From NCBI RefSeq assembly GCF_014640635.1, contig NZ_BMHI01000004.1, positions 62,001 through 126,000 of the forward strand: DNA of 64,000 nt, given 5' to 3'. The stretch comes from Flexivirga endophytica (GTDB lineage Bacteria; Actinomycetota; Actinomycetes; Actinomycetales; Dermatophilaceae). How positions within the stretch are numbered: the first letter of the stretch is position 1; each line of letters begins with the position of its first letter. The translations under genes were made by a program, and so were the position numbers. The notes under the pieces were generated by a model. That model searched no databases, was not told the DNA's origin, and saw only the letters and a list, made by a program, of their open reading frames with translations. Of the stretch, positions 7,520 to 51,309 are shown piece after piece.

Positions 7520-8220
7520 ACTTCTTCGAGCGCCTCTACGACGCGTCGATCACGATCGGCGGACACGGGATCACTTGGCGCGAGATCATCGGCAACCTCT
7601 TCGGGCTGGCGTCCGCGATCGGTGGCATGCGGCGCCGCGTGTGGGCGTGGCCGGTCGGCATCATCGGCAACGCGTTGCTGTTCACTGTGTTCTTCGCGCT
7701 GGGCTTCACCGCGCACGGCGGCCAGGTGATGTTCGGCCAGGCCGGCCGCCAGGTGTTCTTCATCCTCACCTCGATCTACGGCTGGTGGGTCTGGCAGGGC
7801 AACAAGGCCGGCCGGCGGCGTGACGCTCCGGCGGTGCAACCGCACTGGGCGAGCATGAAACAACGGCTGGCACTCGGCGGATTCTGGGTCGTCGCAGTCA
7901 TTTTCGTCCAGTGGGTCACCAGGATGATCGGTGTCGGCTGGACGCCCCCGAGCTGGTACTACTGGGCCGACGCGTGGATCTTCGTCGGCTCGATCGTGGC
8001 GACGTTCGCGATGGCGCGCGGCTGGAACGAGTTCTGGCTGGCGTGGATCGCGGTGGACCTGGTCGGCGTGCCCGAGCTGCTGCACTTCGAGTACTACCCC
8101 TCGGCAGTGCTCTACGCGATCTACGCGGCATTCGTGATCTGGGGCTTCGTCGTCTGGTTGCGGGTCAGCCGCAACTCGGCTCGCGGAGCTGATCGAAGTG
8201 AGGAGTTGGTGACGTCATGA
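7516..8220 (+). CDS. PnuC-family transporter, probably riboflavin (RibM/PnuX type)
   Basis: The 234-residue polytopic membrane protein has about seven hydrophobic segments and PnuC-family features: an early EIIGNLFGLASAIGGM segment and later YGWWVW and a PSWYYWADAW region. PnuC proteins take up nicotinamide riboside, but relatives encoded inside FMN-riboswitch operons of Corynebacterium and Streptomyces (PnuX/RibM) transport riboflavin. The location here, coupled by ATGA overlaps to both ribE and ribBA under the riboswitch, points to riboflavin. That substrate call rests on context, not on identified binding residues. Confidence 0.8.
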   Translation: MNFFERLYDASITIGGHGITWREIIGNLFGLASAIGGMRRRVWAWPVGIIGNALLFTVFFALGFTAHGGQVMFGQAGRQVFFILTSIYGWWVWQGNKAGRRRDAPAVQPHWASMKQRLALGGFWVVAVIFVQWVTRMIGVGWTPPSWYYWADAWIFVGSIVATFAMARGWNEFWLAWIAVDLVGVPELLHFEYYPSAVLYAIYAAFVIWGFVVWLRVSRNSARGADRSEELVTS

Positions 8221-9410
8221 TCGCCACCGTCGAGGCCGCACTGGCCGAAATCGCAGCGGGCCGACCGGTTCTCGTGGCTGACGACGCGGATCGCGAGAAC
8301 GAGGTGGACCTCGTCATGGCGGCCGAGCACGCCGACCAGCGCTGGATCGGCTGGGCGGTCCGGCACGGTTCCGGCGTCATCTGCGCGCCGATGCCCGATC
8401 AGGTCGCCGACCGACTCGCGCTGCCGCAGATGGTCCGGGACAACCAGGACCCGAAGGGCACGGCATACACCGTGTCGGTGGACGCCGCAGGGCTGACGAC
8501 CGGCATCAGCGCCGCCGAACGCGCGACGACGCTACGGCTGCTCGCGGACCCGGGCGCGGTCGCCGAGACCTTCACGCGACCCGGTCACGTCTTTCCGCTG
8601 CGGGCCCGGTTCCGCGGTGTGCTGGAGCGTGCCGGACACACCGAGGCCGCAGTGGACCTGGCCCGGTTGGCCGGGTGTGCGCCGGTCGGCGCAATCGTGG
8701 AGCTGGTCCACGACGACGGCTCGATGATGCGGCTCGCCGACGCCGAGGAGCTTGCCGAGCGGGAGGGCCTGGTCGTGATCACGATCGAGGACCTCGCCAC
8801 CTGGCGCACCCTGCACGATCGGGTGGAGTGCCGCGCGCGGACGAGCCTGCCGACGGTGCACGGCACCTTCGAGATGACCGGGTATGCCGACCTGCTCACC
8901 GGCGCCGAACACGTCGCGCTGGTCTCGCCGCTCGGCATACCCGACGAATCACCGCTCGTGCGAGTGCATTCCGAATGCCTCACCGGTGACGCGTTCGGGT
9001 CGACGCGGTGCGATTGCGGCCCGCAGCTGGCCGAGTCCATGCGCCGGGTCTCGGCCGAGGGCGGCGTGGTCATCTACCTGCGCGGCCACGAGGGTCGTGG
9101 CGTCGGACTGCTGGACAAGCTGCGTGCCTACGCCCTGCAGGACGAGGGTCTGGACACCGTCGACGCACAGACCGCGCTCGGGCTACCGGTCGACGACCGC
9201 GAGTTCGGCGCCGCGGGATCGATCCTGCGCGACCTCGGCATCAGCGCGATGCGGCTGCTCACGAACAACCCCGAGAAGGAGAAGCAGTTGAGGTCTTTGG
9301 GTCTGACCGTCGACCGGTTGCCACTGGTGACCGGCCGCACCATCAACAACAGTCGCTATCTCGACACCAAACGCGACCGCCTCGGTCACCAGATCGGAGA
9401 GACGGCGTGA
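8217..9410 (+). CDS. ribBA: Bifunctional DHBP synthase / GTP cyclohydrolase II
   Basis: Makes both early precursors of riboflavin. Residues 1 to about 205 are the RibB domain, with DRENE, RHGSGVIC, RPGHVFPLRA and GHTEA. Residues about 206-397 are the RibA domain, with the zinc cysteines in SECLTGDAFGSTRCDCG and LRGHEGRGVGL. The acidic loop reads DRENEVDL; the position after ENE is usually Gly (ENEGD), so Val is unusual, though the acidic residues remain. The start overlaps the transporter stop. Its own stop overlaps a GTG that begins the minicistron array. Confidence 0.94.
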   Translation: MIATVEAALAEIAAGRPVLVADDADRENEVDLVMAAEHADQRWIGWAVRHGSGVICAPMPDQVADRLALPQMVRDNQDPKGTAYTVSVDAAGLTTGISAAERATTLRLLADPGAVAETFTRPGHVFPLRARFRGVLERAGHTEAAVDLARLAGCAPVGAIVELVHDDGSMMRLADAEELAEREGLVVITIEDLATWRTLHDRVECRARTSLPTVHGTFEMTGYADLLTGAEHVALVSPLGIPDESPLVRVHSECLTGDAFGSTRCDCGPQLAESMRRVSAEGGVVIYLRGHEGRGVGLLDKLRAYALQDEGLDTVDAQTALGLPVDDREFGAAGSILRDLGISAMRLLTNNPEKEKQLRSLGLTVDRLPLVTGRTINNSRYLDTKRDRLGHQIGETA

Positions 9411-9478
9411 CCGAGCGCAGCGGCGGAACAATGACTCAGGCTCGTGACGGCATCCGAGGAACGAGGAGGGCGCAATGA
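9407..9478 (+). CDS. Minicistron 1 of the ribBA-ribH array
   Basis: A 23-codon frame starting at a GTG that overlaps the ribBA stop (GTGA) and ending in a TGA that overlaps the next ATG. It begins MTERSGGTMTQARDG and ends IRGTRRAQ. Upstream spacing and the coupled overlaps suggest reinitiation from ribBA. The peptide matches nothing I recognise. Confidence 0.55.
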   Translation: MTERSGGTMTQARDGIRGTRRAQ

Positions 9479-9546
9479 GCGAGCGCAGCGAGGGAACAAT
9501 GACTCAGGCTCATGGCGGCATCCGAGGTACGAGGAGGGTGCAATGA
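9475..9546 (+). CDS. Minicistron 2 of the ribBA-ribH array
   Basis: A 23-codon frame beginning [15 protein letters not shown] and ending IRGTRRVQ, preceded by GAGGAGG five bases before the ATG, with ATGA overlaps on both sides. It differs from minicistron 4 by a single residue (Val for Ala near the end) and one synonymous Gly codon. Confidence 0.55.
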   Translation: MSERSEGTMTQAHGGIRGTRRVQ

Positions 9547-9626
9547 GCGAGCGCAGCGAGGGAACAATGACTCAGGCTCATGGCAGCATCCGAGGGATTG
9601 TCCGAGGAACGAGGAGGGCGCAATGA
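9543..9626 (+). CDS. Minicistron 3 of the ribBA-ribH array (27 codons)
   Basis: Begins [15 protein letters not shown] and carries an in-frame four-residue insertion, giving [12 protein letters not shown] at the end. The 12-base insertion being a multiple of three preserves the stop-start overlap, which is what selection for coupling or for the peptide would predict. Confidence 0.55.
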
Positions 9627-9694
9627 GCGAGCGCAGCGAGGGAACAATGACTCAGGCTCATGGCGGCATCCGAGGAACGAGGAGGGCGCAATGA
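9623..9694 (+). CDS. Minicistron 4 of the ribBA-ribH array
   Basis: A 23-codon frame beginning [15 protein letters not shown] and ending IRGTRRAQ. Its stop overlaps the ribH ATG (ATGA), so ribH is the last member of the coupled chain. It provides the GAGGAGG Shine-Dalgarno for ribH. Confidence 0.55.
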
Positions 9695-10155
9695 GCGGGC
9701 ACGGCGCACCGGAGACGGTGGCGGACGGCAGTGGCCTGCGGGTGGCGATCATCGCGGCGTCCTGGCACGAGCAGGTCATGGGCGGTCTCCTCGACGGTGC
9801 CCGCCGCGGGCTCGCGGCGTGCGGGGTCACCGAGACCGCAGAGGTCCGCGTGCCGGGCACCTTCGAGTTGTCCGTCGCGTGCGCCCGGCTGGCGCCGTCG
9901 TATGACGCACTGGTCGCGCTCGGCGTCGTCATACGCGGCGGCACCCCGCACTTCGACTACGTGTGCTCGGCCGCCACGAGCGGCATCACGGACGTCACGG
10001 TGCGCACAGGTGTGCCGGTCGGTTTCGGCGTGCTGACGTGCGACGACGAGCAGCAGGCGCTGGACCGGGCCGGGCTGCCGGGTTCGGTGGAGGACAAGGG
10101 CTTCGAAGCGGCGACCGCTGCTGTCGCGACGGCGGCCACTCTGCGAGCCGTGTGA
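9691..10155 (+). CDS. ribH: 6,7-dimethyl-8-ribityllumazine synthase
   Basis: Condenses the pyrimidine from RibD with dihydroxybutanone phosphate from RibB; forms a capsid-like oligomer in many bacteria. The 154-residue protein has [46 protein letters not shown] (catalytic His in the PHFDY segment) and [14 protein letters not shown]. The ATG at 9691 is the fifth start in the repeat array, with GAGGAGG five bases upstream. The upstream extension of the open frame to 9580 runs through repeats in the wrong unit frame and is not used. A GC-rich inverted repeat (10173-10205) follows the gene. Confidence 0.94.
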
Positions 10156-22816: not shown

Positions 22817-22820
<4 letters not shown>

Positions 22821-23701
22821 GCACCCCACGAAGTTCTCCCCCGCTGCGCTCTTCCGATACTTCGCGGGGGCCCCGCATGTCTTCGTCGGATTCGTCGCAG
22901 GGCCATGTGAGTGCGGTGTCGGAGCGACTCGCGAAGACGAAGTCCGAGGGGCGCGCAGCGCTCGTCGGTTACCTGCCGGTCGGCTACCCCGACGTCGACG
23001 GCTCCATCGAGGCGATGGTCACGATGGTCAAGGCCGGTGTGGACATCGTCGAGATCGGCCTGCCCTACACCGACCCGCTGATGGACGGCCCGGTCATCCA
23101 GACCGCCGCGACCGGTGCGCTGGCCGCCGGCGTGCACGTGCGCGACGTCTTCCGCGCCGCCGAAGCCGTCGCCGCTGCAGGCGCCGCGTGCGAAGTGATG
23201 ACCTACTGGAATCCCGTGCTGCGGTATGGCGTGGACGCCTTCGCCCGCGACCTCGCCGCGGCGGGCTGCTCCGGCCTCATCACGCCCGACCTGGTGCCGG
23301 ACGAGGCCGCCGACTGGATCGAGGCCAGCGCGGCGCACGACCTCGACCGGGTGTTCCTCGTCGCTCCGAGCTCGACACCTGAACGCTTGGTGACCACCAC
23401 GGCCGCCTGCCGCGGATTCGTGTATGCCGCCTCGCTGATGGGTGTGACCGGAGCGCGTGCGCAGGTCGACAGTGAGGCAGCGAAACTGGTGCAGCGCGTC
23501 CGCGCGGTGAGCGACATACCGGCCTGCGTCGGCCTGGGCGTCTCGACCGCCGAACAAGCACGAGAGGTCGCGGGCTACGCCGACGGCGTGATCGTCGGAT
23601 CCGCGCTCGTCGCCACGTTGGTGGACGCCGACGACCGGCAAGCAGGTCTGTCCGCGCTCGCACGCAAGGCCGAGTCCCTTGCCGACGGAGTGCGAGGGTG
23701 A
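22817..23701 (+). CDS. trpA: Tryptophan synthase alpha chain with a repeat-derived N-terminus
   Basis: Cleaves indole-3-glycerol phosphate to indole for TrpB. The family core starts at [19 protein letters not shown] and has [32 protein letters not shown] and [10 protein letters not shown]. The ATG at 22817 overlaps the trpB stop (ATGA) but reads through a complete copy of the dispersed hairpin element before reaching the core. This adds about 20 residues ([18 protein letters not shown]) not found in normal TrpA. A second ATG at 22877, just after the element, would give a normal-length protein. Both starts are possible; the coupled one is given here. Confidence 0.9.
22824..22869. repeat. Dispersed hairpin element, copy 2 (inside the trpA frame)
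   Basis: CCCCACGAAGT (22824-22834) and ACTTCGCGGGG (22859-22869) form the arms, with CCCCCGCTGCGCTCTTCCGAT between them. It matches copy 1 at 1021-1070 except for a few bases. It is open in the trpA frame and lies six bases upstream of the alternative trpA ATG at 22877. Confidence 0.8.
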
Positions 23702-39078: not shown

Positions 39079-40531
39079 CCCACGCGGCTTTCTGAAGGTG
39101 CGGGAGCGCAGCCTCCCGGAACGTCGTCCGGTCCCGGTGCGGATCAAGGACTGGAAAGAGGTCTACGAGGAGCAGCAGCTCTCCGACCTGCAGCAGCAAG
39201 CGGGCCGGTGCATGGATTGCGGCATCCCGTTCTGTCACCAGGGATGTCCGCTGGGCAACCTGATCCCGGAGTGGAACACCCTTGCGTGGCGCGGGGACTG
39301 GCCCGATGCGAGTGACCGGTTGCACGCGACCAACAACTTCCCGGAGTTCACCGGGCGGCTGTGTCCAGCTCCGTGCGAGACCGCCTGCGTGCTGAGCATC
39401 AGCCAGCCCGCGGTGACGATCAAGCAGATCGAGGTGACCACCGTCGAGCAGGCGTTCGCGGAGGGCACCGTGGAGCCACAGCCGCCCGAGCGGCTGACCG
39501 GTCGAACCGTCGCGGTCGTGGGTTCCGGACCTGCGGGCCTGGCTGCCGCGCAGCAGTTGACGCGTGCGGGTCACACCGTCGCGGTCTTCGAACGGGCAGA
39601 CAAACCAGGCGGATTGCTGCGTTACGGCATTCCCGAGTTCAAGATGGAGAAGTCGATCGTCGACCGGCGCATCGACCAGATGACCGCGGAGGGCACTCGG
39701 TTCCGGTGCAACACCGAGATCGGCAAGGACATCACCTGGGCACAGTTGCGCGCACGGTATGACGCCGTGATCGTCGCGATCGGCTCGACCGTGCCACGTG
39801 ACCTGCCGGTGCAGGGCCGCGAGCTCGACAGATTCGTCCAGGCGATGGACTTCCTGCCTCCGGCCAACCGGGTCGCCCTGGGCGAGCAGGTGACCGACCA
39901 GGTCACCGCCGAGGGCAAGCACGTCGTGGTGATCGGTGGCGGCGACACCGGAGCGGACTGCATCGGCACGTCGCTGCGACAGGGCGCGAAGTCGGTGACC
40001 TCGCTGGAGATCATGCCGCGGCCGGGGGACGAGCGTTCCGAGGCACACCCGTGGCCGACATACCCGATGATCTTCCGGGTCGCCAGCGCGCACGAGGAGG
40101 GTGGTGAACGCGTCTACGCGATCAGCACCAAGGAGGCCATCGACGATGGCACTGGGAAGCTGCGCGCGCTGCGGGTAGCCGAAGTCCGTTCCGGTGACAA
40201 CGGATTCGAAGAGGTCGAAGGCACCGAACGCGAGATCGACGCCGACCTGGTGTTGCTCGCGATGGGCTTCCTCGGGCCGTTGACCGAGAGCCTGGTCAGC
40301 GACCTCGGCGTCGAGCTCGACGAGCGCTCCAACGTGCGGCGTGACGCGGACTTCATGTCGTCGGTGCCGGGGGTCTTCGTCGCAGGTGACGCCGGTCGTG
40401 GACAGTCGCTGATCGTGTGGGCGATCGCCGAGGGCCGCGCCGCCGCGCACGGCGTCGACGCGTTCCTGTCCGGTGGGCACTCCGACCTGCCGGCGCCGAT
40501 CGCGCCGACCGACCGCCCGCTGACCGTCTGA
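39071..40531 (+). CDS. gltD: Glutamate synthase small subunit
   Basis: Feeds electrons from NADPH to GltB. The 486-residue protein has the N-terminal 4Fe-4S cysteines ([21 protein letters not shown] and [10 protein letters not shown]), an FAD-binding [20 protein letters not shown]-binding [11 protein letters not shown] and the C-terminal [21 protein letters not shown]. It starts at a GTG inside the end of gltB. A tandem repeat of 51 bp lies beyond it. Confidence 0.96.
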
Positions 40532-40543
40532 GGAGCGACCCAC

Positions 40544-40680
40544 TCGCTACTGTCGCGAGTTATTCGTCCTGCGAGGCGGTTCCGGGCGAGTAGGTCGCTA
40601 CTGTCGCGAGTTATTCGTCCTGCGAGGCGGTTCCGGGCGAGTAGGTCGCTACCGTCGCGACTTACTCGTGCCGCGAAACG
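40544..40680. repeat. 51-bp tandem repeat between gltD and pyk
   Basis: The unit starts TCGCTACTGTCGCGAGTTAT and ends GGCGAGTAGG. Copies begin at 40544 and 40595 (nearly identical) and a diverged partial copy begins at 40646. The period is 17 codons and the minus strand stays open across it, with a repeat of about LLARNRLAGRITRDSSD. I do not think that frame is a gene, because it runs into gltD. Together with the 66 bases on the right it forms the 225-bp gltD-pyk gap. Confidence 0.85.
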
Positions 40681-40756: not shown

Positions 40757-42196
40757 ATGCGTCGAGCCAAAATTGTTTGCACCCTCGGACCTGCCACTGC
40801 TGCACCGGAGAAGGTGCGGGCCTTGGTCGACGCCGGAATGGATGTCGCGCGACTGAACCTCTCGCACGGCGCCTACTCGGACCACGAGCAGGTCTACCGG
40901 GCGATCCGTGCGGCGTCGGACGATTCCGGTCGCGCCGTGTGTGTCATGTGCGACCTCCAGGGCCCGAAGATCCGGACCGGCAATTTCGCAGACGGTCCGA
41001 TCATGCTCGCCAACGGTGATCCGTTCACGATCACAGTCGACGACATCGAGGGCGACCAAAGCCGAGTTTCCACTACTTACAAGGGTTTGCCGGGCGACGT
41101 GCAGCCCGGCGACCTGCTGCTCATCGACGACGGCAAGGTCTGCCTGCGGGCGCGGGAAGTCACCGAGACCGAGGTGCATGCCGAGGTGATCGAGGGCGGT
41201 CCGGTCTCCAACCACAAGGGCATCAACCTGCCCGGGGTCGCGGTGAGCGTCCCCGCACTGTCGGAGAAGGACGAGGCCGACCTGCGCTGGGCACTGAAGC
41301 TGGGCGCCGATGTGGTCGCACTGTCCTTCGTGCGGGATGCCTCCGACATACGGCGTGCGCACGAGATCATGGACGAGGAGGGGCGGCGGGTCCCGGTGAT
41401 CGCGAAGGTCGAAAAGCCCCAGGCGGTCGACAATCTCGCGGCGATCATCGACGCGTTCGACGGTGTGATGGTGGCGCGTGGTGACCTGGGCGTGGAGCTC
41501 CCGCTGGAGGAGGTCCCGCTCGTGCAGAAGCGCGCGATCGAGATCTGCCGGCGCAACGCCAAGCCGGTCATCGTCGCGACGCAGGTGCTCGAGTCGATGA
41601 TCGAGAACTCCCGGCCGACGCGGGCCGAGGCCAGCGACTGCGCCAACGCGGTGCTCGACGGTGCCGACGCGATCATGCTGTCCGGGGAGACCAGTGTCGG
41701 CGCGTGGCCGATCGAGTCCGTCCAGACGATGGCTCGCATCATCGACAGCACCGAGGAGCACGGGCTGGACCGGGTGCCGCCGCTGGGCACCCGCCCGCAC
41801 ACCAAGGGTGGCGCCGTGACCGCCGCCGCAGCGGAGGTCGGCGACCTGCTGGGCGTCCGCTATCTGGTGACGTTCACCGAGTCGGGCGACTCCGCGAAGC
41901 GGATGTCGCGCATCCGCAGCGCCCGCCCGATGCTGGCGTTCACACCGGCGGCGTCCACGCGGTCCCAGCTGGCGATGGTGTGGGGAGTGGAGACCTACCT
42001 CGTGCCGCAGGTGAAGCACACCGACCAGATGGCCATGCAGGTCGACGAGACGTTGCTGGGGGAGGGCCGCGCGGAGGAAGGCGACCTCGTCGTCATCGTG
42101 GCCGGTTCGCCCCCGGGGATCCCCGGCTCCACCAACGCGTTGCGCGTGCACCGGATGGGTGACGCCCGGAACAAGGTCGCCCCCGCCTACCACTGA
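40757..42196 (+). CDS. pyk: Pyruvate kinase
   Basis: Converts phosphoenolpyruvate to pyruvate with ATP formation. The 479-residue protein starts MRRAKIVCTLGPATAAPEKV and has the active-site VIAKVEKPQAVDNL, VARGDLGVELPLEEVPLVQK, ATQVLESMIENSRPTRAEASD and the C-terminal allosteric domain. No Shine-Dalgarno precedes the ATG; a -10 box lies six bases before it. Pyk after gltBD is the usual actinobacterial order. Confidence 0.96.
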   Translation: MRRAKIVCTLGPATAAPEKVRALVDAGMDVARLNLSHGAYSDHEQVYRAIRAASDDSGRAVCVMCDLQGPKIRTGNFADGPIMLANGDPFTITVDDIEGDQSRVSTTYKGLPGDVQPGDLLLIDDGKVCLRAREVTETEVHAEVIEGGPVSNHKGINLPGVAVSVPALSEKDEADLRWALKLGADVVALSFVRDASDIRRAHEIMDEEGRRVPVIAKVEKPQAVDNLAAIIDAFDGVMVARGDLGVELPLEEVPLVQKRAIEICRRNAKPVIVATQVLESMIENSRPTRAEASDCANAVLDGADAIMLSGETSVGAWPIESVQTMARIIDSTEEHGLDRVPPLGTRPHTKGGAVTAAAAEVGDLLGVRYLVTFTESGDSAKRMSRIRSARPMLAFTPAASTRSQLAMVWGVETYLVPQVKHTDQMAMQVDETLLGEGRAEEGDLVVIVAGSPPGIPGSTNALRVHRMGDARNKVAPAYH

Positions 42197-48379: not shown

Positions 48380-51061
48380 GTGAAACGCCTCCTTCTCCTC
48401 GACGGTCATTCGCTCGCCTACCGCGCGTTCTACGCGCTCCCGGTCGAGAACTTCTCGACCTCCACCGGGCAGCCCACCAATGGCGTCTACGGCTTCACCT
48501 CGATGCTGATCAACGTGCTGCGGGACGAGGAGCCCACCCACATCGGTGTCTGTTTCGACGTCTCCCGGCAGACCTTCCGCGCGGAGGAATACGCCGAATA
48601 CAAGGCCGGTCGGGCCAAGACCCCGGACGAGTTCAAGGGGCAGGTGTCGCTCGTCCACGAGATCCTCGACGCGCTGAAGATCCGCTACATCGAGCTGGCC
48701 GGCTGGGAGGCCGACGACCTCATCGCGACGCTGTCGACCCAGGCCGAGGACCAAGGCTTCGACGAGGTGCTGATCGTGTCCGGCGACCGCGACGCGATGC
48801 AGCTGGTCACCGACAAGGTGACCGTGCTCTACCCGGCCAAGGGAGTGTCCGACCTGTGGCGGATGACACCGGCGAAGGTCGAGGAGCGCTATCTGGTCTC
48901 CCCGGAGCGCTACCCCGACCTGGCCGCGCTGGTGGGGGAGAAGTCCGACAACCTGCCCGGGGTGCCCGGCGTCGGCGCCAAGACTGCTGCCAAGTGGCTG
49001 GCGCTGTATGGCGACCTGCCCGGCATCGTCGACCACGTCGGTGAGATCAAGGGCAAGGTCGGCGACTCGTTGCGTGAGCATCTGGACGGGGTGCTGCGCA
49101 ACCGTCGGCTCAACCAGCTGGTACGTGACGTCAGCCTCGACGTGACCGTCGACGACTTGGAGCGCCAGGTGTGGGACCGCGACCAGGTGCACCAGGTCTT
49201 CGACGGCCTCGAGTTCCGGGTGTTGCGTGAGCGGCTCTTCGCGACCCTCGACGCGGCCGGTGATGAGGCTGAAGGTGTGGTCGAGGTCGAAGGTTCGGTC
49301 CTGGCGCCGGAAGAGGTCGCCGGCTGGGTCGCCGACAACCTCACCTCGAAGGAACGCGCCGGACTGCACGTCATCGGCGACTGGTCCCGCGGGACCGGCG
49401 ACGTGCGTGCGATCGCCGTCGCTGTCGGTGACGGGGAGGCCGCACGGGCGGCATACTTCGACGTGGCGGAGCTGACGCAGGCGGCCGACAAGGTCGTGCG
49501 CGAGTGGCTGGCCGACCCGGAGCGTCCGAAGGTCATGCACGACGCCAAGGGTCCGCTGCAGGCGTTGTATGCCGCGGGCCTCCCGCTCGCCGGGCTGGTG
49601 AGCGACACCGCGCTGGCGGCATACCTCGTGCGGCCCGACCAGCGCGCCTACGACCTCGCCGACCTGGTGTTGCGCTTCCTGCGCCGCGAGCTGCGGCCCG
49701 AGCAGGACAACCCGGCCCAGGGGATGCTCGACCTGGACGGCCACGACCACCAAGGCGAGGAGGCGATGGTCCAGGCGCGCGCCGTGCTCGACCTGTCGAC
49801 GGCGCTGGACGAGCAGGTCGCCGAGACCGGCGGCACCGAGCTGCTGGCCGAGATGGAGCTGCCGCTGGTCGATCTGCTGGCGCAGATGGAGCGCGTCGGC
49901 ATCCACGTCGACCCGGAGCTGCTGGAGCGGCTGGAGAGCGATTACGCCGACGCGCTGGATCGCGCGGCCGAGGACGCCTACGAGGCGGCCGAGGGTGAGC
50001 GCATCAACTTGGGTTCGCCGAAGCAGTTGCAGGTGCTGCTCTTCGACAAGCTCGGCATGCCCAAGACCAAGAAGACCAAGACCGGCTACACGACTGACGC
50101 CGATGCGTTGACCGATCTCTACGCCAAGACCGAGCACCCGTTCCTGGAAGCGCTTCTGCGGCATCGGGATTCGGCACGTCTGCGGGTGACCGTGGAGGGA
50201 CTGACCAAGTCGATCGCGGACGATGGTCGCATCCATACGACCTACCAGCAGACGATCGCGGCGACCGGTCGGCTCTCGTCGACCGACCCCAACCTGCAGA
50301 ACATCCCGATCCGCACCGAGGAGGGGCGCCGCATCCGTGAGGCGTTCGTTGTCGGTGACGGATTCGAGTCGTTGATGTCGGCCGACTACAGCCAGATCGA
50401 GATGCGGATCATGGCGCACCTGTCCGGCGACGAAGGCCTGATCGAGGCGTTCCGCAGCGGTGAGGACCTGCACCGGTTCGTAGGCTCCCGGGTGTTCGCC
50501 GTCGAGCCGCAGGACGTGACGGCCGAGATGCGCGCGAAGGTCAAGGCGATGTCCTACGGCCTCGCCTACGGTTTGTCGGCATACGGACTGTCGAAGCAGC
50601 TGGCGATCTCCGCCGGCGAGGCGACGACGCTGATGGAGGAGTACTTCACCCGGTTCGGGGGAGTGCGTGACTACCTGCGGGAGGTCGTCGACGTCGCTCG
50701 CAAGACCGGTTACACCGAGACGATGCTCGGCCGCCGGCGCTACCTGCCTGACCTGACGTCGGACAATCGGCAGCGACGCCAGGCGGCCGAACGGATGGCG
50801 CTCAACGCACCCATCCAGGGTTCGGCCGCCGACGTGATGAAGCTGGCCATGCTGCACGTGCGTGCTGCACTCGATACCGCGGACGTGAAGTCCCGCATGC
50901 TGCTGCAGGTCCACGACGAGCTCGTCATCGAGATCGCGCCGGGGGAGCAGGCCACGGTCGAGGAGATCGTCCGGCGCGAGATGGGTGCCGCGATCGAGCT
51001 CGACGTGCCGCTGGACGTCAGCATCGGCGTGGGAAACTCCTGGCACGCCGCCGCGCACTGA
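48380..51061 (+). CDS. polA: DNA polymerase I
   Basis: Replication and repair polymerase. The 893-residue protein has an N-terminal 5' nuclease domain (VKRLLLLDGHSLAYRAFYAL; GWEADDLIATL; GDRDAMQLV; DNLPGVPGVGAKTAAKWL), a 3'-5' exonuclease-like domain lacking its catalytic residues as in other actinobacteria, and the polymerase domain with motif A (MSADYSQIEMRI), motif B (KAMSYGLAYGLSAYG) and motif C (LLQVHDELVIE). The GTG at 48380 fits the conserved N-terminus. The ATG at 48376 is out of frame. A perfect 18-bp hairpin follows. Confidence 0.96.
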   Translation: MKRLLLLDGHSLAYRAFYALPVENFSTSTGQPTNGVYGFTSMLINVLRDEEPTHIGVCFDVSRQTFRAEEYAEYKAGRAKTPDEFKGQVSLVHEILDALKIRYIELAGWEADDLIATLSTQAEDQGFDEVLIVSGDRDAMQLVTDKVTVLYPAKGVSDLWRMTPAKVEERYLVSPERYPDLAALVGEKSDNLPGVPGVGAKTAAKWLALYGDLPGIVDHVGEIKGKVGDSLREHLDGVLRNRRLNQLVRDVSLDVTVDDLERQVWDRDQVHQVFDGLEFRVLRERLFATLDAAGDEAEGVVEVEGSVLAPEEVAGWVADNLTSKERAGLHVIGDWSRGTGDVRAIAVAVGDGEAARAAYFDVAELTQAADKVVREWLADPERPKVMHDAKGPLQALYAAGLPLAGLVSDTALAAYLVRPDQRAYDLADLVLRFLRRELRPEQDNPAQGMLDLDGHDHQGEEAMVQARAVLDLSTALDEQVAETGGTELLAEMELPLVDLLAQMERVGIHVDPELLERLESDYADALDRAAEDAYEAAEGERINLGSPKQLQVLLFDKLGMPKTKKTKTGYTTDADALTDLYAKTEHPFLEALLRHRDSARLRVTVEGLTKSIADDGRIHTTYQQTIAATGRLSSTDPNLQNIPIRTEEGRRIREAFVVGDGFESLMSADYSQIEMRIMAHLSGDEGLIEAFRSGEDLHRFVGSRVFAVEPQDVTAEMRAKVKAMSYGLAYGLSAYGLSKQLAISAGEATTLMEEYFTRFGGVRDYLREVVDVARKTGYTETMLGRRRYLPDLTSDNRQRRQAAERMALNAPIQGSAADVMKLAMLHVRAALDTADVKSRMLLQVHDELVIEIAPGEQATVEEIVRREMGAAIELDVPLDVSIGVGNSWHAAAH

Positions 51062-51155: not shown

Positions 51156-51205
51156 TTCGTGGTTACGGGTCGCCCGGCGTGTACCGAAGTCTCCCCAGTG
51201 TCGGG

Positions 51206-51309
51206 GTATGGGCGGTGTGAGTGGCCGCACGCGTGCACGGCTTGACCCTGGGGCGGCGTATGGGCGGTGTGAGTGGCCGCACGCGTGCACGGCCTGACAC
51301 TGGGTCGGG
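51206..51309. repeat. 52-bp direct repeat pair
   Basis: GTATGGGCGGTGTGAGTGGC is found at 51206 and 51258, each followed by CGCACGCGTGCACGGC and TGAC(C/A)CTGGG. The CACGCGTG core is palindromic. The region between polA and the minus-strand gene holds no other feature. Confidence 0.85.

Follow-up and report, generated by a model that had tools for sequence, protein, structure and literature searches.

The four short coupled reading frames that lie between ribBA and ribH in Flexivirga endophytica are very probably copies of a short MIRU-type element, which would insert at start codons and be nearly neutral to its host operon because the coupling it interrupts is rebuilt. The element is located at gene starts, in most cases on an ATGA and often where this ATGA is also the stop of the upstream gene. 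In the mechanism proposed, the old start codon would now open an ORF of ~23 codons filling the element, while the gene would be provided with a new Shine-Dalgarno sequence (SD) and a new start codon overlapped by the stop of that ORF. Ribosomes would translate the minicistron, melt a hairpin, terminate at the new start and begin again there, and for this reason the insertion would have almost no effect on the operon. Arrays of the m1-m4 kind would form if the ATGA of a copy already in place served as the site of a further insertion or of recombination, with coupling repeated at each step. This interpretation suggests that chains of minicistrons inside operons can arise without a regulatory role.

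The array between ribBA and ribH and the dispersal of its unit

The window, that is, the whole stretch of 64,000 nucleotides analysed, carries on its plus strand an FMN riboswitch (RF00050, 5646-5774, 96.8 bits) ahead of the rib genes, with ribBA (8217-9410, assigned by NCBIfam) as the upstream partner of the chain and ribH, encoding lumazine synthase (9691-10155, NCBIfam TIGR00114), as the downstream one. The best named relatives of this ribBA are those of Flexivirga caeni (81%), F. meconopsidis (72%) and Leekyejoonella antrihumi (71%). Between the two genes, at 9407-9694, lie four plus-strand units of 68 bp each save one of 80 bp, where TRF reports a tandem repeat at 9408-9697 with a period of 68 and 4.1 copies. 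Unit 1 (m1, 9407-9478, 23 aa) has its GTG start within the ribBA stop, TGA at 9408-9410, and is followed by m2 (9475-9546, 23 aa), m3 (9543-9626, 27 aa) and m4 (9623-9694, 23 aa), the stop of which overlaps the ribH start. All junctions of the chain ribBA-m1-m2-m3-m4-ribH are 4-nt DTGA overlaps. The coordinates and overlaps of four stop-start coupled minicistrons, as described in an earlier note on this DNA, were thus confirmed, and its description of a -1 frame step at each junction was supported. Its claim of a Shine-Dalgarno sequence at every step holds for four of the five junctions, where ACGAGGAGG occurs at 9461-9469, 9529-9537, 9609-9617 and 9677-9685 with a spacing of five bases to the next ATG, and fails at ribBA-m1, which has GGAGAG inside ribBA instead. 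Reinitiation, put forward in that note as the logic of the chain, is still the likely reading as judged from sequence.

Because there are differences among the units (two bases between m2 and m4, and 12 additional in-frame bases in m3), a duplication introduced by assembly is disfavoured, and as profile matches to the unit recur at ~29 places in the genome, the array is not a product of chance. A 3' hairpin predicted in unit 4 (9658-9694, plus strand) encloses the SD and the ribH start codon in an imperfect stem. Compared with shuffles, the array folded no better (z -0.83), its own stems being imperfect. The earlier note regarded an independent promoter just before ribH as contrary to its proposal; no sigma-70-like consensus was found in 9200-9750, and a promoter of another type may be present.

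Dispersal of the unit, referred to here as family A, is evident in the genome itself. BLAST with the unit returned 16 matches, 12 of which lie outside the ribBA-ribH array. R1, a profile derived purely from the sequences of 12 copies, gave at least 47 matches at E<=1 and at least 38 at E<1e-3, counts that may be lower bounds with 150 of 6727 first-look candidates scored. The 38 matches fall into ~29 loci, 13 of them lying in four tandem arrays and 25 elsewhere, and 68 bp is the most frequent unit length. These arrays are located at C4:71408-71694 (the four units between ribBA and ribH), C4:579080-579340 (four units), C2:640023-640218 (three units) and C1:881429-881568 (two units). The second of them, with units of 71, 62, 62 and 62 bp, is situated between Pfam HopA1-family and LanC-like genes, perhaps in a lanthipeptide-type cluster. 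Two further tandem repeats were observed in the window: one of 51 bp (40544-40676, 2.6 copies), which has no R1 match and lies between plus-strand ORFs ending at 40531 and starting at 40757, and one of 52 bp (51202-51308, 2.1 copies), which follows an ORF that ends at 51061 and contains candidate ORF starts at 51221 and 51273.

Outside this genome, R1 matches at E<=1e-3 were found in the same-genus genomes G002 (F. caeni; 29), G004 (13), G003 (2) and G001 (1), as well as in G022, a member of another genus of the same family (5). With stricter filters, matches at E<=1e-5 occurred in 3 of 59 genomes of a family sample (the own genome, G003 and G022), and at E<=1e-6 in one of 296 genomes of a phylum sample, the own. 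Among the stretches around ribBA in 80 named records, the element was present at E<=0.01 in F. caeni alone. G022 nevertheless contains the top-scoring match overall (69.8 bits) and also a tandem pair of identical units (L140), which suggests recent activity or transfer.

Occupied junctions, empty junctions and a second family

Family A lies in front of genes of many kinds. At the 20 of 29 loci searched, all 20 downstream proteins carry Pfam domains, and these are diverse, including cytidylate kinase, SufBD, DNA_processg_A, ABC permeases and protein kinase among others, with ribH besides. Where the stop of an upstream protein coincides with the 5' TGA of the element, Pfam domains were found in 8 of the 10 proteins searched. 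There are also loci with no stop at the 5' end; one of these (L110) starts with ATGG after an SD-like sequence.

In sister genomes, several of these junctions are empty. Between ribBA and ribH, G004 and G001 show nothing but an ATGA overlap, F. caeni has an insert of 125 bp consisting of two diverged family A units, with one 42-codon ORF ending at GTGA, and G003, the junction sequence of which agrees with F. meconopsidis, has a different, palindromic insert whose short ORF ends at the start of ribH. The comparison of this gap across sister species, as advised in the earlier note, has revealed differing copy numbers (four in the own genome, two diverged in F. caeni, none in G004 and G001). When seven more junctions were queried as joined flanks, three were matched across the junction and four were not; one of these four had a match, in G004, confined to its upstream flank. 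The cmk junction holds a 70-bp element in the own genome and G004 and no insert in G001, G002 and G003. At the CoA-transferase junction, 68 bp are present in the own genome and no insert in G004, G001 and G003. The protein kinase junction has 68 bp in the own genome and G001, no insert in G003 and G004, and in G002 a remnant of 26 bp, the 9-codon ORF of which still ends at ATGA. Unfilled sites keep one ATGA and filled sites show DTGA at each end; copies were probably gained by insertion rather than lost in the sisters.

Across 47 non-redundant copies, a weak excess of matches is seen between the bases preceding the two ATGAs (observed versus expected, 33/23.7 at -1, 19/13.5 at -2, 19/11.0 at -5 and 26/20.0 at -8), and likewise between those following them at +2 (35 versus 26.3); the target duplication may exceed 4 bp. 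No terminal inverted repeat, a hallmark of MITEs, was noticed by eye in the family A element. A Y1 (IS200/IS605-type) transposase, considered as a mover of REP elements, was rejected as a candidate, with PF01797 in none of six genomes and the control search positive in 5 of 14.

The palindromic insert of G003 at ribBA-ribH is a member of a second family (family B, profile R2), which has at E<=1e-6 101 matches in the own genome, 30 in G001, 28 in G002, 25 in G003, 30 in G004 and 96 in G022. Thirty loci were read, these being the best hits of a model for which mostly copies at sites of this kind had been used. A script detected DTGA on both sides in 15 of them, all with 2-mod-3 spacing (53, 59, 62 and 65 bp), but these 15 are neither random nor independent because of the scoring, the site-biased model and the inclusion of some units of the same array or orthologues. 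Three more (L218, L221 and L223) appear similar by eye, and the remaining 12 do not show the double DTGA. In the window, copies of R2 are found at 22818-22875 and 1016-1078, the first of which starts within the terminal ATGA of an ORF ending at 22820.

Reading frame, hairpin and alternative explanations

Conservation of frame was assessed by pooling 88 family A matches, 38 from the own genome and 50 from others; counts refer to the 66 copies with DTGA at both ends, the 22 partial or unclear ones being left out, so the set is selected for DTGA. The insert length modulo 3 is 2 in 57 copies, 1 in six and 0 in three. The 2-mod-3 copies measure 59, 62, 65, 68, 71 or 80 bp, the 68-bp class being inflated by common descent and array units not being independent. 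Frame 0 is open across the element in 62 copies, frame 1 in none and frame 2 in 38. Translation from the first start arrives exactly at the next start in 55 copies and near it in four, restarts internally in three, results in an in-frame fusion in three and fails in one (C4:55178), the classes 'near', 'restart' and 'fusion' having been defined after the exceptions were seen; some path into the next start is retained in 65 of the 66. When one random 1-nt indel per element was simulated, 5.9% of outcomes were exact, 3.8% near, 8.4% restarts, 36.4% fusions and 45.5% failures, some path surviving in 54.5%. With the interior shuffled at constant length, 66.2% were still exact and 18% failed, which indicates that much of the path signal is length. 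The protected property thus appears to be mainly length, which equals frame, and continuity. The preservation of frame through indels, asserted in the earlier note, is correct for most indels but not for the nine of 66 clear copies that deviate from 2 mod 3; such frame-breaking indels in relatives had been named there as refuting its proposal, and they count against it in part, although eight of the nine retain some path into the next gene.

Two 70-bp copies (L107, G000:C4:552135; L206, G002:C14:77101) are broken in frame and carry an internal ATGA, from which another short ORF runs as far as the next start, such that continuity is kept in two steps. A copy in G003 with a 30-bp internal duplication (98 bp), outside the 66-copy set, has one 33-codon ORF ending at ATGA. 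The units of the array at G004:C3:283117-283290, which has a 57-bp period, are not separated by ATGA and do not form a coupled chain, and in the G002:C10 array the last unit is without a DTGA end.

A further feature is a hairpin. In an RNAalifold prediction from 12 copies, the 3' half folds to a stem enclosing the SD region, with the start codon in the 3' arm, and the fold of the whole element shows two-sided changes in at least one copy at 7 of 14 predicted pairs. In a first arm-pairing test, with misplaced windows, no signal was obtained, 817 of 5000 permutations reaching the observed value. Once the windows had been shifted to where the folds placed the arms, so that the repeat was not blind, the arms of 47 non-redundant copies paired at -9.12 kcal/mol with their own partners versus -5.17 when swapped (0 of 5000 permutations). 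By these measures, the hairpin arms of family A covary between copies. It is proposed that translation of the minicistron would open the stem that covers the SD and start codon of the following gene, and the stem may also have a role in mobility.

That family A is a REP- or MITE-like DNA element whose transposition machinery merely prefers ATGA, with the ORF incidental and without translational selection, is unlikely. Such an origin would fit the ATGA found at both ends when a site is filled and once when it is unfilled, the hairpin, and the second, palindromic family at the same kind of site. However, indels retain 2 mod 3 across the six lengths and in the 98-bp copy and the 26-bp remnant as well, three frame- or stop-broken copies restart internally, and the family B copies with double DTGA are 15 of 15 at 2 mod 3, albeit selected and partly dependent. 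The idea that the units form a reinitiation cassette specific to ribH, amplified by selection so that unit number sets ribH output, is less likely still. Four units do stand here and species differ at this junction, and there is a precedent in M. tuberculosis, where, according to the available part of PMC2734929, MIRU-VNTR length correlates with the Mtb-fpg1 mRNA level, a longer region going with higher fpg1 mRNA; the precedent, however, is correlative and at the level of mRNA. With the unit at ~29 loci, in three other tandem arrays and before diverse genes, ribH is not singled out. The amplified cassette particular to ribBA-ribH that the earlier note envisaged is contradicted by the 38 profile matches genome-wide and by the element-free sites in sister genomes; tuning of ribH by copy number is possible but not favoured. 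Good conservation of codons 2-8 and a degree of third-position excess there (diversity 0.25 vs 0.10 and 0.13; 25 non-redundant 68-bp copies) would fit a conserved functional micropeptide (MSERSE...). Such a peptide is hardly credible, as this excess is absent in codons 9-14 and 15-23, the remnant and in-frame indels preserve frame rather than peptide, and family B yields peptides unrelated to those of family A.

Comparison with known systems

MITE-type elements (Correia/NEMIS, ERIC, RUP and RPE) are similar to family A in being short, non-autonomous, hairpin-forming and dispersed, some of them with ORFs, and differ from it in being, in the available portion of PMC2229807, mainly intergenic or fused in frame within genes; the term 'start codon' is absent from the main text of that paper. 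Termination-reinitiation coupling at ATGA, as presented in the accessible parts of PMC6728339 and PMC10666635, has the same junction type and the same proposed ribosome behaviour as the MIRU-type element favoured here, whereas its partners are ordinary genes and not repeat units.

Family A is likened to MIRUs by described anatomy and is named MIRU-type rather than MIRU because its host, Flexivirga, is not a mycobacterium. The ORF of MIRUs reportedly overlaps the neighbouring genes by DTGA, as the ORF of family A does exactly in 55 of 66 clear copies. In the available text of PMC12548453, which refers to Supply et al. 1997, MIRUs are presented as repeats of mycobacteria that are apparently mobile and insert at start codons, with an internal ORF coupled at a -4 nt spacing; in view of this shared anatomy, the view in the earlier note that no example had been described is not supported. 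Insertion at start codons has its counterpart in the element-free relatives at the ribBA-ribH, cmk, CoA-transferase and kinase junctions, and both kinds of short repeat are, by the same partial record, dispersed and tandem, family A with at least 38 matches, ~29 loci and four arrays. Two MIRU lengths given for senX3-regX3 in the accessible part of PMC4213456, 77 and 53 bp, are also 2 mod 3. Promoter activity has been reported there for the senX3-regX3 region, and no counterpart was found at ribBA-ribH (9200-9750). The copy number of MIRUs differs between isolates at some loci, as far as the sources available describe; for family A the comparison covered species, between which the number at ribBA-ribH differs. 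A possible effect of MIRUs on translation inside operons, proposed earlier, is taken up again in the available part of PMC2734929.

Unlike MIRUs, with their mycobacterial host, family A resides in Flexivirga and its kin, of another genus and order. In family A a covarying hairpin encloses the SD and start, and the element is accompanied in Flexivirga by a second, unrelated family with the same habit. In the open-licence literature searched, the sequence letters of the repeat were absent, no description of the host, the covarying hairpin or the second family was found, and MIRUs were the sole described relative of the anatomy. By its anatomy, the kind is thus already known, and these three features are apparently undescribed. 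With its occupied and empty sites, its natural remnant and its natural indels, Flexivirga gives a second, non-mycobacterial system for testing the idea that MIRU insertion has little effect because coupling is rebuilt. It can be suggested tentatively, with rather less than even confidence, that at least two unrelated families of mini-elements in one genus have converged on occupying stop-start overlaps and carrying their own coupled ORF, in family A together with a hairpin over SD and start that upstream translation opens, and that operons therefore tolerate their insertion. MIRUs would then belong to a wider class of mobile repeats that preserve coupling, rather than being peculiar to mycobacteria.
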